Virus record (IMG/VR): IMGVR_UViG_3300025407_000092
Location: 1 to 28,953 of that record
Source of the DNA: a virus
Strand: one strand, 5' to 3'
DNA length: 28,953 nucleotides
This document shows, in pieces, positions 1,339 through 28,842 of the stretch; positions within the stretch are counted from its first letter, which is position 1; each line of letters opens with the position of its first letter. The translations under genes were made by a program, and so were the position numbers. The notes beneath the pieces are model-generated. The model was given only the letters and a program-made list of their open reading frames with translations, was not told the DNA's origin and ran no database searches.

Positions 1339-1977
1339 ATGGCATCAAACTTAAACGAGTTTCTATCTACCTTCACGTCGGATGTATCAAGGCCAAATAA
1401 GTTCTATGTTGTGGTCAATGTACCTCCGTTTTTACTATCACAATATTCTAATATGCCTAGAGCACTTTCATTTCGTTGTGAAACGGCAGAAATTCCAGGT
1501 AGAACAATTAATACGATTGACCAAAAGTTTGGTTCTAATCCTATTGAGAAGTTTCCAAACCAATCATCATATAATGATTTAACATTAACATTTATTGTTT
1601 CAGATGACATGAGTGAAAAAGCTTTCTTTGATGCCTGGATGGATTTTATTAATCCTACAAGTAACTTTAATTTTAAATATAAAGTCGATTATGCTGTACC
1701 AATATACATCAATCAATATGATGTGACGGATCAATTGTCATTCCAAGTGGAATGTATTGATGCTTATCCTATAGCAATTAATCAATTAGATTTAGATTGG
1801 TCAAGTGATGGCCATCATAAATTAACGGTAGTATTTGCATATACATATTATAATACATACCCACAACAAGCAGGTGTATCATTACCAACAGATACAGCTC
1901 TTGGTATATCTTCACAACTACAAGGTGCGCCTTTCCCACCACCTCCACCACCTAATGGTGTTAATTTTGGGTTATAG
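1339..1977 (+). CDS. Tail tube-fold protein (T4 gp19/gp54 superfamily)
   Basis: 212 aa from ATG 1339, preceded by AAGGAG; a longer in-phase frame from 1204 is only overlap with gp53. The opening NKFYVVVNVPP, the SFRCETAEIPGRTI strand pair and YNDLTLTFIVSDDM are typical of phage tube proteins, where the arriving subunit swaps strands with the ring below. T4 gp19 is about 163 aa; the extra length is a C-terminal tail with a six-proline run and no clear fold. It may be the main tube protein or a baseplate-proximal initiator such as gp54. Position beside gp53 and gp26 favours a baseplate-proximal role, but this is undecided. Confidence 0.75.
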   Translation: MASNLNEFLSTFTSDVSRPNKFYVVVNVPPFLLSQYSNMPRALSFRCETAEIPGRTINTIDQKFGSNPIEKFPNQSSYNDLTLTFIVSDDMSEKAFFDAWMDFINPTSNFNFKYKVDYAVPIYINQYDVTDQLSFQVECIDAYPIAINQLDLDWSSDGHHKLTVVFAYTYYNTYPQQAGVSLPTDTALGISSQLQGAPFPPPPPPNGVNFGL

Positions 1978-2000: not shown

Positions 2001-2726
2001 ATGGCTTTGCCAAAAATTGATGTGCCGGTCTACCAAATTGATTTGCCTTTATCTAAAAAGCATATTAATTTTAGACCATTTTTAGTAAAAGAACAAAAGA
2101 ATTTATTGATGGCAATGGAATCATCTGATTCTGAAACCATTGAACAAAACATAAAACAAATTCTTACAAATTGCACCATATCAGAAAATATAGATATTGA
2201 TTCATTACCAATTATTGATATTGAATACTACTTCTTGCAATTACGAGCAAGGTCTGTTGGTGAAATTATAGAAAACAAATATAAGTGTAATAATGTTGTA
2301 GAAGATAAAGAATGTGGTAATTTAATGGATGTAAAATTAAATATCTTTGATGTTAAAGTAGACATGAAAGAAGATTTAAAAGATGTCATTCAATTAACAG
2401 ATAAAATTTCTGTCAAATTAAACTACCCAAAATTCTCAGCAATCAAACGAGCATCAAAGTTTGAAAATTCAGCTGACATGGCATTTGATATGATTGCTAG
2501 TTCTATTGAATATGTTTACGATGGTGAACAATTCTATTACGCTAAAGAAACAGATCCTGGTGAGATGATTGATTTTATCGAATCACTTAATACTGAACAG
2601 TTTAGTAAATTGGAAGAATTCTTTGCTAATTTGCCAAAGATGAAACAAACTGTTGCTATGAAATGTAAGAAGTGTGGTTTTGGCCACAGCATAGATGTGG
2701 AGGGTCTGGAAAGTTTTTTCGGTTAG
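2001..2726 (+). CDS. 26: Baseplate hub/assembly protein gp26-like, zero-frame product
   Basis: 241 aa with Shine-Dalgarno TTAGGAG upstream. It resembles the T4 gp26 baseplate family (T4 gp26 is 208 aa). Cysteine pairs at CNN...EC in mid-protein and CKKCGF near the end look like a split zinc ribbon or decayed zinc site. The last codons before TAG are AGT-TTT-TTC-GGT and contain a perfect -1 slippery heptamer, so a second, longer product is expected (see the frameshift site). gp26 acts in hub assembly in T4; whether this one is a chaperone or a structural subunit cannot be told from sequence. Confidence 0.75.
   Translation: MALPKIDVPVYQIDLPLSKKHINFRPFLVKEQKNLLMAMESSDSETIEQNIKQILTNCTISENIDIDSLPIIDIEYYFLQLRARSVGEIIENKYKCNNVVEDKECGNLMDVKLNIFDVKVDMKEDLKDVIQLTDKISVKLNYPKFSAIKRASKFENSADMAFDMIASSIEYVYDGEQFYYAKETDPGEMIDFIESLNTEQFSKLEEFFANLPKMKQTVAMKCKKCGFGHSIDVEGLESFFG
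2699..2720 (+). promoter_or_regulatory. Programmed -1 ribosomal frameshift site
   Basis: The heptamer T-TTT-TTC at 2714-2720 is in the correct phase of the gp26 frame for X-XXY-YYZ slippage. GGAGGG at 2699-2704 is a strong Shine-Dalgarno-like element ending 9 nt before it, the arrangement that stimulates -1 slippage in E. coli dnaX. Downstream there is only the short palindrome TTGTCATGACAA (2730-2741) as a possible hairpin. The -1 frame runs on for 64 codons to TGA at 2912-2914. P2 uses the similar T-TTT-TTG in its E/E' tail genes. Confidence 0.75.
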
Positions 2727-2914
2727 TTTTTTGTCATGACAACTTGAGTAATTATTACCGCACTAACTTTTCATTGATTCAGCATCACAAATATAGCCTG
2801 GCAGAGCTAGAGAATATGCTGCCTTGGGAGCGTGATATCTATGTCACCATGTTAATACAGCATATTGAAGAAGAAAACGAAAAGATTAAACAACGAAACG
2901 CTGCTAACAAATGA
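2720..2914 (+). CDS. -1-frame extension of gp26 (tail-assembly-chaperone-type second domain, gp51 position)
   Basis: 64 codons in the -1 frame relative to gp26, ending at TGA 2912-2914. The frame has no ATG before its conserved-looking part and no ribosome site of its own; the only upstream starts are a GTG inside gp26 and isolated TTGs. Through slippage it would give a 304-residue gp26 fusion. The sequence YSLAELENMLPWERDIYV followed by HIEEENEKIK is a compact helical domain of the kind seen in the second half of frameshifted tail assembly chaperones. Overlaps the next gene by ATGA. Small proteins in this position are sometimes annotated gp51; I do not claim homology to T4 gp51. Confidence 0.65.
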   Translation, partial: RLVFCHDNLSNYYRTNFSLIQHHKYSLAELENMLPWERDIYVTMLIQHIEEENEKIKQRNAANK

Positions 2915-4485
2915 TAACCAAAAAACTAGGCGAAGAAGTTTATGTTTGGGATCCTTTAGCCTTTATGGGTAAAGGATATTGGTTCATTCTTGGCAAAAAT
3001 GGAAAGTATGGGCGTGCTGCTTCTAAAAAAGATGCTACAAAATTAGGTAAGATTAAACCTGAATCCAAAGCAGAAGTTCCTAAAAAAGATATCATTAAAG
3101 CTTCACCAATTTCAAATAATACACCTATACCTGAAGTATCAGAAGAAACCAAAGAATCTGTAGAAAAAACTACCAAGAAATTTTCTCCTGAAAATATGGC
3201 AAAAGGTATTATGAAAGGAAAAAGTTTTTTATCACCTGAAGAACACACCAAACACGAAAAACTAAAAGCAAGAGCAAAGCCTAGAAAAGAAAATGTATTC
3301 AAAAAACATTTAGGTTTAATATATGCTTTAGTTAAAACTAAAATTGAAGAAGATAAGTTGAAAATGGAATTAGCTAAAGATTTCCATAAACAACAAGAAA
3401 ATGATGAACAAAAAAGACATGAAGAATTAGTTTCAGCTTTAGGTGGAAAAGGTGTAAGGCCTACATCTAAAGAAGATAAGAAAAAACAAAAAGAGAAAAA
3501 AGAAAGTAATACATTATTAAAAGCAATTATAGGATTTGTTACTGGTGGAATAGTTGGTCTACTTACTGATTCAAAAAAAAGTGTAGATAAAACAAGCCAA
3601 GATATAGATAAGAGTAAAAGTGATGCTGATAAAATGAAAAGTGATTCTGCTGATTTGGATTCAAAAGAAGCGGAGAAGAAAAAAACAACAGTATCAACAA
3701 GAGAAGGTGCACCTGCACCTACAAAAGCGCCTGGCGCAGGTAGACCTCCATCAAGACCTCCATCTGGTGCACCAGCTGGTAAACCTTTACCACCATCTCA
3801 AGCAGAAAAAGCAATTGCAGGTGGTGATCCAGTTAAAGCTATGATTGTTCGACATGAAGGTGTTCGTATGGCACCTTATAAAGATAGTTTAGGATTATGG
3901 ACAGTAGGTGTTGGTCATCTTATTGGTGACGGTAAATCTCTACCATCTGAATGGAATAAAACATTTTCAGCAGAAGAAGTTAAAGACTTATTTGACCAAG
4001 ATTATGAGTATCACAAAAAGGCTGCTGAAAAGATACCAGGTTATTCTAATGTTAAGGGGCCAGGACAAGGCGCATTGATTGATTTGACTTTTAATATGGG
4101 TCCAGTTTGGTATAAAAAATGGCCTACATTCACTAAAAAGTTATCTGGTGGTGACATTCAAGGTGCAGCTGGTGAATTAGAAAAGAGTAAATGGTACACA
4201 CAAGTAGGTAAACGTGGTCCTGATATTGTTGCTATGTTACAATCATCAGATAAAGGTGGTTCATCGTCAGCGGATGCAACACCAAGCAATAGAAATACAG
4301 GCGCACAATTAGCAAGTGCTTCATCCACCAATAAAGATATGAAAGCTGACCAAGCATCATCTGGTCAAAACACAGTTATTGTAAATAATAATAACACAAC
4401 AGTAGCAAAGAGCACCACAACAAAAACTAATGTAGTTCCACAAAAAAACGATAATTCAGTATTAACGCAGGCACAATATGGATAA
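2911..4485 (+). CDS. Tail/baseplate protein with T4-type lysozyme domain
   Basis: 524 aa. Residues 1-45 hold a domain shared with the next gene (VWDPLAFMGKGYWF, then GRAASKK). Next comes a Lys/Glu-rich, probably coiled segment to about 200, a hydrophobic Gly-rich stretch near 202-220, an Ala/Pro linker near 265-295, then a GH24 lysozyme domain about 308-440. Catalytic residues E316, D325 and T331 keep the exact T4 lysozyme spacing (E11, D20, T26) in RHEGVRMAPYKDS...LWTVGVGH. The C-terminus is Asn/Thr-rich. The role is local peptidoglycan digestion by the tail, as for T4 gp5, but there is no gp5 OB fold or beta-helix repeat visible, so this is not a plain gp5 orthologue. Starts in the ATGA overlap with the frameshifted frame. 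Confidence 0.75.
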   Translation: MITKKLGEEVYVWDPLAFMGKGYWFILGKNGKYGRAASKKDATKLGKIKPESKAEVPKKDIIKASPISNNTPIPEVSEETKESVEKTTKKFSPENMAKGIMKGKSFLSPEEHTKHEKLKARAKPRKENVFKKHLGLIYALVKTKIEEDKLKMELAKDFHKQQENDEQKRHEELVSALGGKGVRPTSKEDKKKQKEKKESNTLLKAIIGFVTGGIVGLLTDSKKSVDKTSQDIDKSKSDADKMKSDSADLDSKEAEKKKTTVSTREGAPAPTKAPGAGRPPSRPPSGAPAGKPLPPSQAEKAIAGGDPVKAMIVRHEGVRMAPYKDSLGLWTVGVGHLIGDGKSLPSEWNKTFSAEEVKDLFDQDYEYHKKAAEKIPGYSNVKGPGQGALIDLTFNMGPVWYKKWPTFTKKLSGGDIQGAAGELEKSKWYTQVGKRGPDIVAMLQSSDKGGSSSADATPSNRNTGAQLASASSTNKDMKADQASSGQNTVIVNNNNTTVAKSTTTKTNVVPQKNDNSVLTQAQYG

Positions 4486-6163
4486 CCTTATAACTAAAAA
4501 ATTAGATGGACATACTTGGGTTTGGGATCCTTTAGCCTTTATGGGTAAAGGTTATTGGTTTATGCTTGGTAAAAACGGCAACTATGGTCGTGCTGCTTCT
4601 AAAAAAGAAGCCGCTTCATTAGGCAAAATTGATAAAACAGAAACCGAACCAGCATCAGAAAAAGTCTATAAACAAGAAAAGGGTAAACCCGGAAAAGAAT
4701 CTGAATTTGCTAAAGCAGGAGAAATTAGAAAAAAAGGTTTCTCTAAAATGGTTGCTGAAAAATTAGCATCAGGCCAATCTTTAGGTAAATCATTAAAATC
4801 TACCATATCAGAAAAAACAAAAGCAAAAGCGGTTGGTATGAGAGAGAAGTTTAATCCAATGAATATTGCTAAAGGTATGTTTGGTGAAGCAGGCGCAATG
4901 TATGTTGGCAAAAAAATGGGCGCAAAAAAAGAAGATATTGAATATTTTTCTGATACAAAAATACCAAATAAGTTAGAAGACGAGAAAGCAAAGAAAAAGA
5001 AAAGTAAGGAACCTGAATCTGAACCTACTGCTACTAAAGTTCCATCAGCAGGAAAAAGTAATGCTACTACCGAAAATATGTCTGACACCAAAACTATGAA
5101 AGGTTCAGCAGATACTATTATTGTAAAACTTTATGAATTACTTAAAAAGAATTTTGATGATAAAAAAACTCAAGATGAGTTAATGAAAGACTTTGAACAA
5201 GAAAGAAAAAATACTCAAGAAAAAAGACACAAAGAATTAATTGAAGCAATTAAAAGTAGAGGTGATGGTAAAGGTTTAGCTGAAAAAATTGGAGATAAAG
5301 TTAAAGAAGCAAAACAAGGATTCATGGAAAAACTTATCTCTGGTTTAGGTAAAATGTTTGAGATATTTGAAGGTATTGGTGCATTTATTTCAATGATTGC
5401 ACCATTATTAGCTGGTCTTGCTGAATTATTTGTACCAATACTTGCTGTTATAGCTGCTGTTATTGCCGTAGTTGCATTATTTAAACTAGGTAAATGGTTA
5501 TGGAATAAATTCAAAGGTGCTGACAAGAAAGCTGATGATGTAAAAAAAGATATACCAAAAGAAGTAGCATCAGGTGATACAGCAACAAAACAATCTTCTG
5601 CATCAGGCGGTGAAACACCATCAGCATCACCAACAAATTCAGGCGCAAATGGTGCATCAGGCTCAAACGGAAGTTCTGGTATGGCCGGAGCTGCAGGTTC
5701 AGACGGAAGTTCTGGTACATCTGGAGCTCCAGGTGCTTCACCTTCAGCAAGTTCTGCAGGTGCTCCAGGTTCCGCAGGAGCAGCTGGATCATCTTCAAGT
5801 GGTGCACCAGGATCAGCAGGAGCCGCTGGTTCACCAGGTGCCGCCGGAGCACCAGGTTCAGCGGGATCCGTTGGTTCTGTTGGTGCTGCTGGCGCAAGTG
5901 CAACTGCTTCACCTACATCGGCACCAACGGCTACACCAACTGCATCGCCAAGTTCTTTAGGTTCTAAAATGACGGCTGCAACAAAAGAAAATAATGATGC
6001 TCAATTACAATCATCAGGTTCTTCAACACCTACTATTATTAATAATACATCTTCAAAAGGAATGGATATTGATCCTCCAGATGTTATGACTGGTAATTTT
6101 TCAGTGCGTAATGATGACTCAGCGTTTATGAGAGTGTTACGAATGAACACTCGAGCAGTATAA
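4478..6163 (+). CDS. Tail protein with shared N-terminal domain, membrane segment and collagen-like tract
   Basis: 561 aa, overlapping the previous gene by 8 nt. Residues 5-50 repeat the N-terminal domain of the lysozyme protein (ITKKL, VWDPLAFMGKGYWF, LGKNG, YGRAASKK). Residues about 50-290 are Lys/Glu-rich and helical. A long hydrophobic block about 295-340 (IAPLLAGLAELFVPILAVIA) could span a membrane or lie in the tail lumen. Residues about 388-475 are a Gly-X-X collagen-like tract with GAPGSAGAAGS twice. The C-terminus (GNFSVRNDDSAFMRV) is the only compact-looking part. It could be a tape-measure-related or tail-tip protein ejected toward the host membrane. No firm family recognised. Last gene of the late block, directly before a terminator. 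Confidence 0.55.
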   Translation: MDNLITKKLDGHTWVWDPLAFMGKGYWFMLGKNGNYGRAASKKEAASLGKIDKTETEPASEKVYKQEKGKPGKESEFAKAGEIRKKGFSKMVAEKLASGQSLGKSLKSTISEKTKAKAVGMREKFNPMNIAKGMFGEAGAMYVGKKMGAKKEDIEYFSDTKIPNKLEDEKAKKKKSKEPESEPTATKVPSAGKSNATTENMSDTKTMKGSADTIIVKLYELLKKNFDDKKTQDELMKDFEQERKNTQEKRHKELIEAIKSRGDGKGLAEKIGDKVKEAKQGFMEKLISGLGKMFEIFEGIGAFISMIAPLLAGLAELFVPILAVIAAVIAVVALFKLGKWLWNKFKGADKKADDVKKDIPKEVASGDTATKQSSASGGETPSASPTNSGANGASGSNGSSGMAGAAGSDGSSGTSGAPGASPSASSAGAPGSAGAAGSSSSGAPGSAGAAGSPGAAGAPGSAGSVGSVGAAGASATASPTSAPTATPTASPSSLGSKMTAATKENNDAQLQSSGSSTPTIINNTSSKGMDIDPPDVMTGNFSVRNDDSAFMRVLRMNTRAV

Positions 6164-11677: not shown

Positions 11678-12997
11678 TTAATATTTCCAATCTTTACAAT
11701 AACCAAGTTTGTGTAATTTTTTCAATGCATCATCACATTTATCACCGATATCGGTTCTATGATGTTCATCGTTACCAAACTTAACTTTATCGACAATATC
11801 ATAAGCTTTATCTTTTGCCTCTGATACTGTATCACCTACTCCTGTGCAAACAACAATATAACTACCTGCTGTTCCCCATTCATAGGCTTCTTCATCTAAC
11901 ACACCATCGACCATTTTAACTGTCTTTGATAGTTTCACTTCACAAGGATGAATAAATTTATAATCATCACCTTCTGCTTTCTCTGTTAAAACAGGGAAGT
12001 CTAGGTATGATTCTTCTTCGTTTTTGTTGTGTGGGAAATCTGAATTTGCCATTACAACACCAACACAAGTTTTAAAATCCACTTCTAATGTGTTTTTACC
12101 TTTAACACAATCTAAAATCCATTCTGCTGGGTCACCTTTATGTAAAGGTTGTTGAATATTCCACATAGGATATCCAGGTCTTGCTGTCCATTCCATTGGC
12201 CATGGTGTACCATCTTTCTCATCAATGATACAATTCATATCTAGCATACCAACATAACCAATCTTGTGTAAGGTGTCTGCCATTGGTTTGAGTAGCATAT
12301 CTGCTAGTTTAGATTGTTTGGTGTAACGGATAACTGTTCCCATCTCTCCTGTGTTTACACCAAGGTCTTTGTTCATATGTTTCTTATGTTCAAAACCTTC
12401 TGCAAAGAATGGCATCCAACCTGCTGGGCCAAATATACCAGTCACACATAGTTCAATACCAGGTCTAAATTCTTGTAGAATAAACTTACCGGTACCGCCA
12501 CCTTTTTCTTTATGTTTCATTAAGAAACCAATCATATCTGCCTCATCTTTGGCAACATATGATAATGTCTTGTCTTCTTCTTCACCTATTGGTTTAGAAA
12601 CCCAACGACCACCATGTTCTTTTACGAATTGAATGGCTGCATCATAATTACTGAATGGGTGTGATGGTATAACTTTACCACCAAAGTCTTCAATTACTTT
12701 TTGACCATACATACGGTCTAATTCTAGTTTAGCTGCTCGTTTACCTGGTCCAAATATAGGATAACCTTTCTTAATATACTCATCAATTTCATCCATCATT
12801 TCGAGGTTATCTGATGAGAATATCAAATCGGCAACATCCATATACTTGCGCCAATTGGTAATCTTGTCTACAAGGCCTTCACCTATATGGGAAGACCTTG
12901 AGCCTTTGGTATACAATTTGACTGTGTGTCCGGCAGCAACACAGCGTAAGCACCAGTCTAAAGTTAATGCTGGTGGATCAAGAACGAGAATAAGCAT
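11678..12997 (-). CDS. purD: Phosphoribosylamine-glycine ligase-like ATP-grasp enzyme
   Basis: 439 aa, close to the usual length of about 430. N-terminal Rossmann-like part (LILVLDPPALTLDWC) differs from the canonical GxGGREHA start. ATP-grasp features follow: WVSKPIGEEEDKTLSYV, FILQEFRPGIELCVTG, then HKKHMNKDLGVNTGEMGTV (canonical NTGGMG) and WPMEWTARPGYP. PurD makes glycinamide ribonucleotide, step two of purine synthesis, so it would act as an auxiliary metabolic gene raising nucleotide supply. The altered N-terminus leaves open another ATP-grasp substrate. Shine-Dalgarno AGGA precedes the ATG. Confidence 0.75.
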   Translation of the reverse strand: MLILVLDPPALTLDWCLRCVAAGHTVKLYTKGSRSSHIGEGLVDKITNWRKYMDVADLIFSSDNLEMMDEIDEYIKKGYPIFGPGKRAAKLELDRMYGQKVIEDFGGKVIPSHPFSNYDAAIQFVKEHGGRWVSKPIGEEEDKTLSYVAKDEADMIGFLMKHKEKGGGTGKFILQEFRPGIELCVTGIFGPAGWMPFFAEGFEHKKHMNKDLGVNTGEMGTVIRYTKQSKLADMLLKPMADTLHKIGYVGMLDMNCIIDEKDGTPWPMEWTARPGYPMWNIQQPLHKGDPAEWILDCVKGKNTLEVDFKTCVGVVMANSDFPHNKNEEESYLDFPVLTEKAEGDDYKFIHPCEVKLSKTVKMVDGVLDEEAYEWGTAGSYIVVCTGVGDTVSEAKDKAYDIVDKVKFGNDEHHRTDIGDKCDDALKKLHKLGYCKDWKY

Positions 12998-28518: not shown

Positions 28519-28842
28519 TTAGTGTAGTTTAGGGAATGCTCGTAGGTTGTCTTCGTGTCTTACGATATCAGTTTCTTCAACAAAATCATCAAATATCATA
28601 ACCACATTTTCTTCGGTGACAATCCAATAGTCTTCGTCTTCAAATTTAGTTTGTGAAGCAGTTTGCCAGTTAGGAAGAATAGCATCACCTACTCTAACCT
28701 CTTTAACAGTATTACCTACAGCAACCACACGGCCTTTTTGTGCCTCGGCTGGGTCATTAGATGATAGGATAATACCAGATTGTGTCTTTAAGTTTCTTTC
28801 AATCAGTTTTACAATAATTTTGTCGCCAATGGGTCTTAACAT
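28519..28842 (-). CDS. GroES-like co-chaperonin (gp31 functional equivalent)
   Basis: 107 aa, Shine-Dalgarno AAGGA. N-terminus MLRPIGDKIIVKLIERNLKT, then QSGIILSSNDPAEAQKGRVV and VGNTVKEVRVGDAILPN, the Cpn10 beta-barrel with the mobile-loop position at about 18-30. Bacterial GroES is about 97 aa. C-terminal tail DNLRAFPKLH is extra. T4 gp31 replaces GroES to fold the major capsid protein; this one is closer to GroES in sequence than T4 gp31 is. Confidence 0.85.
   Translation of the reverse strand: MLRPIGDKIIVKLIERNLKTQSGIILSSNDPAEAQKGRVVAVGNTVKEVRVGDAILPNWQTASQTKFEDEDYWIVTEENVVMIFDDFVEETDIVRHEDNLRAFPKLH

Follow-up and report, generated by a model that had tools for sequence, protein, structure and literature searches.

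Layout of the gp26 locus

The DNA analysed here (hereafter the window) is a 28,953-nucleotide stretch of a new uncultured phage, IMG/VR record IMGVR_UViG_3300025407_000092. A tail-assembly-chaperone gene lies within its first 3 kb, with the following features at the locus and on either side of it.

1339..1977, + strand: tail-tube-like gene directly upstream of the chaperone gene (phrog_45 tail tube, E 1.5e-38)
2001..2726, + strand: gp26, short form of the tail-assembly chaperone (TAC-N), 241 aa (open reading frame with PF12322 and phrog_150 matches)
2001..2914, + strand: predicted long form gp26-gp51 (TAC-NC), 304 aa, made through a -1 frameshift (in-frame fusion at the same point in T4-type gp51)
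2699..2704, + strand: internal Shine-Dalgarno-like (SD) GGAGGG, probable stimulator (sequence; SD matches of at least 5 bases above synonymous expectation)
2714..2720, + strand: slippery heptamer T TTT TTC, predicted -1 frameshift site (in phase; in-phase TTTTTT(C/T) in 119/119 clusters of relatives)
2720..2914, + strand: -1 frame C-terminal domain (TAC-C, "gp51"), 64 codons plus stop, predicted to be read only after the slip (phrog_634 match, coding pattern)
2911..4485, + strand: lysozyme-domain protein gene, next downstream (PF00959, E 7.6e-14)

The 3' end of gp26 reads GAG GGT CTG GAA AGT TTT TTC GGT TAG, with the stop codon at 2724-2726. The frame-0 slip codons are TTT (2715-2717) and TTC (2718-2720), so that the heptamer lies in the correct phase near the gp26 stop, as a sequence-only reading of this DNA had claimed, with a single GGT codon between heptamer and stop. 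GGAGGG precedes the heptamer by the 9 nt given in that reading. No stop interrupts the -1 frame between 2669 and the TGA at 2912-2914, which overlaps the start codon of the following gene (ATG, 2911) in an ATGA; its 64 codons past the slip and the product sizes of 241 and 304 aa agree with what had been predicted, and the slip product would contain the junction ESFFRLVFCHD. The same reading held that this frame lacks a start of its own, which stands for ATG, none of which occurs ahead of the conserved domain, but not for other start codons, since the frame contains a TTG at 2744 and, before the slip, a GTG at 2672.

In profile searches, gp26 matches PF12322 (E 1.5e-59) and phrog_150 (baseplate hub; E 9.4e-65), and it is the single PF12322 copy of the record. 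The peptide of the -1 frame matches phrog_634 (baseplate hub assembly catalyst, gp51; E 5.4e-30), and on this profile evidence the domain is the "gp51" family of cyanophages. Since phrog_150 has fused proteins among its members, T4 gp51 being one, the peptide also matches the final 46 positions of that family; a protein-level search matched it in 632 phage records. Matches of the domain to Stealth_CR2 and other Pfam families were weak, below the cut-off, and were set aside.

The slip site and the -1 frame among relatives

Taken by itself, the heptamer of the window is weak evidence, because an in-phase TTTTTT occurs at 6 of the 7,310 codon positions in the 45 window open reading frames. We therefore turned to relatives; IMG/VR and phage records supplied 364 sequences, among which 286 junctions were distinct. 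At 262 of these junctions an unfused gp26 is followed by the C-domain; clustering at 80% nucleotide identity gave 119 clusters. Every one of the 262 unfused loci has the C-domain in the -1 frame, open past the gp26 stop, and none has it in any other frame. Relatives, which the sequence-only reading had proposed as a check, never interrupt the heptamer: an in-phase TTTTTT(C/T) is present at all 262 loci and in all 119 clusters, as TTTTTTC in 106 and as TTTTTTT in 13. Ahead of the slip codon pair stands a codon for Ser, Asn, Asp, Ala, His or Thr, and this codon always ends in T. Codon usage in the same genes predicts 52.5 such sites where 119 are seen (log10 P about -46, a figure that treats the clusters as independent although they are related), and the T run occurs at only 6 of 115 other Phe-Phe pairs of these genes. 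It is this conservation among relatives, and not the single site, that places the predicted slip site far beyond chance.

Named phages carry the same arrangement. The junction is AGT/GAT/AAT TTT TT(C/T) in P-SSM2, S-SKS1, Melnitz, phiM12, Vibrio D482 and Milchi, in all of which GenBank gives gp26 and the C-domain as two separate coding sequences; the layout in the more distant pf16, Atu_ph04, S-N03 and the KVP40-like Vibrio phage V09 agrees with the frameshift type. The C-domain is unannotated in the ACG-2014e and Atu_ph04 records, though present in the -1 frame.

The -1 frame is constrained as protein from the slip onward. The first -1 codon past the slip is CGN (Arg) in 93/119 clusters, with all four third bases used, while the frame-0 residue at the same spot varies among Gly, Val, Ala and Glu. 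Substitutions at the three codon positions are biased to the third both in the first ten -1 codons (0.255/0.148/0.373) and in later ones (0.179/0.067/0.404). By these patterns, coding in the -1 frame begins at the slip codon, ahead of any start codon; the second reading frame is in the -1 phase, overlaps gp26, is coding and needs no start of its own.

The T4-type phages T4, Phi1 and phiAS4 have two genes in place of a slip. Genes 26 and 51 are divergent neighbours in these genomes, both PF12322 members, with gene 26 encoding the short protein and the long gp51 running on into the C-domain. In profile alignments with T4-type gp51, the match to gp26 ends at residue 201 and that to the -1 domain begins at residue 200, which places the fusion in this gp51 exactly at the predicted slip point. 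The sequence-only reading knew of no frameshift in T4 gp26, and the genes bear this out: T4 has no slip site, and the long form is encoded by the separate, paralogous gene 51. Across 15 records searched whole, we found one PF12322 copy in each of 12 frameshift-type records (88-253 kb) and two in each of 3 T4-type records. In the tree, which is unrooted and has long branches, a branch sets each of the three groups apart from the rest, which fits a single duplication in the T4 type; given that tree, we only infer that frameshifting was the ancestral state. V09, which is filed under Straboviridae as T4 is, falls on the frameshift side together with its close relative D482, which has one PF12322 copy, so that not all of this family has the T4-type gene pair.

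Two probable products from one chaperone gene

We conclude that the locus is very probably one tail-assembly-chaperone gene decoded in two ways, giving gp26 and a -1-frameshifted gp26-gp51. The majority of ribosomes would stop at 2724-2726 and release the 241-aa gp26. Pairing of GGAGGG with 16S rRNA probably pulls some ribosomes back one base at T TTT TTC, where both tRNAs would re-pair on TTT TTT; the slipped ribosomes would then read the -1 frame and produce the 304-aa protein with its small helical C-terminal domain. We infer the occurrence of the slip, its efficiency and the role of GGAGGG.

The internal SD appears to be weakly but significantly selected beyond the protein sequence. Matches of at least 5 bases occur in 54/119 clusters, compared with 29.7 expected and a maximum of 41 in 500 synonymous resamplings, and the spacing to the heptamer in relatives is 8-10 nt. 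This excess supports a dnaX-like role for GGAGGG. Four-base matches are as frequent as the conserved Glu-Gly codons predict, and therefore only matches of at least 5 bases were counted. We found no conserved downstream stem-loop or pseudoknot in relatives (mean z -0.5 to -1.0 versus -0.2 to -0.8 in controls) and no structure signal downstream of the slip in the window (z between -0.2 and +1.6), and with no consistent signal we dropped downstream RNA structure as a stimulator. We likewise dropped the idea that C at heptamer position 7 tunes slipperiness, because the conserved -1 Arg codon CGN explains the C. A broader proposal, which we regard as evenly balanced between right and wrong, is that in gp26/gp51 loci outside the T4 group the T TTT TT(C/T) slip has an internal SD, 8-10 nt upstream, as its main selected stimulator and operates without downstream RNA structure, and that the T4 group lost recoding once, by duplication into a short copy and a fused long copy.

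Three other explanations of the locus were weighed. The -1 frame could be a separate small gene (gp51), translated by re-initiation or from a start of its own near the gp26 stop, which is how GenBank annotates cyanophages. P-SSM2, S-SKS1 and others do have an ATG a few bases past the gp26 stop, and re-initiation is possible in the 32/119 clusters in which an ATG follows the slip within 15 codons. It is unlikely to be the main route, however, because the other 87 clusters, and the window with them, have no such ATG, in keeping with the missing start codon claimed for the window, and because an SD match of at least 4 bases accompanies just 2 of the 32 ATGs. A separate gene would also leave unexplained the invariant TTTTTT(C/T) and the conserved -1 Arg codon ahead of the gp26 stop, and in T4-type phages the domain is made solely in fused form; we consider this reading highly improbable.

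We give the same small weight to slippage of RNA polymerase, rather than of the ribosome, on the T run, which would also join the two frames. The run has at least six T in all loci and eight in Melnitz, but strong transcriptional slippage usually needs runs longer than six T, and in the 106 clusters with TTTTTTC the run ends at six T and a C. That the heptamer is of ribosomal type and in phase, with an SD at the spacing that ribosomes use, favours the ribosome. The heptamer might instead be kept just because gp26 needs Phe-Phe, the second frame being incidental. Phe-Phe is indeed conserved at the gp26 end, but the synonymous choices are fixed as well, including the third base of the variable preceding codon; T4 gp26 retains Phe-Phe coded as TTC TTT, and the -1 frame shows protein-level constraint. 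This last reading is so improbable as to be negligible beside a ribosomal frameshift in a single chaperone gene.

Relation to known tail-assembly chaperones

The predicted gp26 fold (pLDDT 87.8) appears to resemble the HK97 (gp13-type) tail-assembly chaperone. With VIA-align, residues 1-86 of the model match the HK97 chaperone 2ob9 over 84 residues (Z 7.0, rmsd 4.3), and other matches are 3fgx (Z 8.0), YqbN 3klu (Z 6.9) and the phage-satellite-like protein 5ir0 (Z 5.6); the next, unrelated match has Z 3.2, although Z 7-8 is a level that a best background match can also reach. Foldseek alone gave no significant match of the model to the PDB (E 2.1). A profile of gp26 against the sequences of solved structures returned only a portal protein at E 0.93, which we took as chance. 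For the model of T4-type gp51 the fold search was uninformative: no match exceeded Z 4.4, and those listed included no chaperone. That long-form model has a helical C-terminal addition, with helices within residues 206-248, which fits the small helical domain that had been proposed for the -1 frame.

Frameshifting of T4-like chaperones is not a new idea. A 2016 review described G-T frameshifting as conserved in long-tailed phages "except T4" (PMC5009743), and Vladimirov, Gautam and Davidson (2022, Virology 566:9-15) are reported by citing papers (PMC10885494, PMC12846349) to have identified the T4-like chaperone genes, which frameshift in some groups and are separate in T4. Their TAC-N/TAC-NC systems, as those citing papers describe them, share with the window PF12322, a short and a long product and a poly-T -1 signal in the short-form gene. 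The window is a clear further example and no new type of system; it adds a new uncultured phage, and the internal GGAGGG and the codon-level statistics are worked out here. The abstract of the Vladimirov paper reportedly names T4 genes 26 and 51 and frameshifting in several T4-like groups. The suggestion that gp26 joins the frameshifted chaperone families is borne out by the apparent HK97-like fold of the model and by agreement with that study as cited.

As in lambda (G/GT) and P2 (E/E'), the window has a short chaperone and a predicted longer -1 form encoded after a tail-tube-like gene, and by analogy with lambda G and GT the two forms may coat the tape measure and recruit tube subunits. Profile searches reported no sequence similarity of gp26 to the lambda and P2 chaperone families, the lambda heptamer differs from T TTT TTC, and the window gp26 is larger than its lambda and P2 counterparts, carrying an additional region beyond its HK97-like N-terminal part. 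T4 genes 26 and 51 likewise encode homologous short and long proteins, but as divergently oriented paralogues with no slip site, the long form being fused in frame at the same position. E. coli dnaX (A AAA AAG) also has an internal SD about 10 nt upstream of its heptamer; it has a downstream hairpin, of which none was found here, and its frameshift gives the shorter product.

The codon-level evidence for recoding is strong, and the database records examined miss it, giving two genes or leaving the second unannotated. The T4 exception among long-tailed phages (PMC5009743) is explained by its long chaperone being a separate gene. In annotations of T4-like phages outside the T4 group, the two frames should be joined.

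The gene at 2911..4485 occupies the slot expected for a tape-measure gene and carries a lysozyme domain; in phiM12, the gene two places downstream of the C-domain is annotated as similar to tape measure proteins. The products of 2911-4485 and 4478-6163 have a common N-terminal part (identity 41% across 132 aa, E 9e-23), the former having the lysozyme domain and the latter collagen-like Gly-X-Y repeats, as if an N-terminal module had been duplicated. On the minus strand, the window also encodes a phosphoribosylglycinamide-synthetase-like ATP-grasp protein (11678-12997; GARS_A and GARS_C), an auxiliary gene of purine-synthesis type, and a GroES/Cpn10-type co-chaperonin (28519-28842; PF00166, E 2.5e-15).
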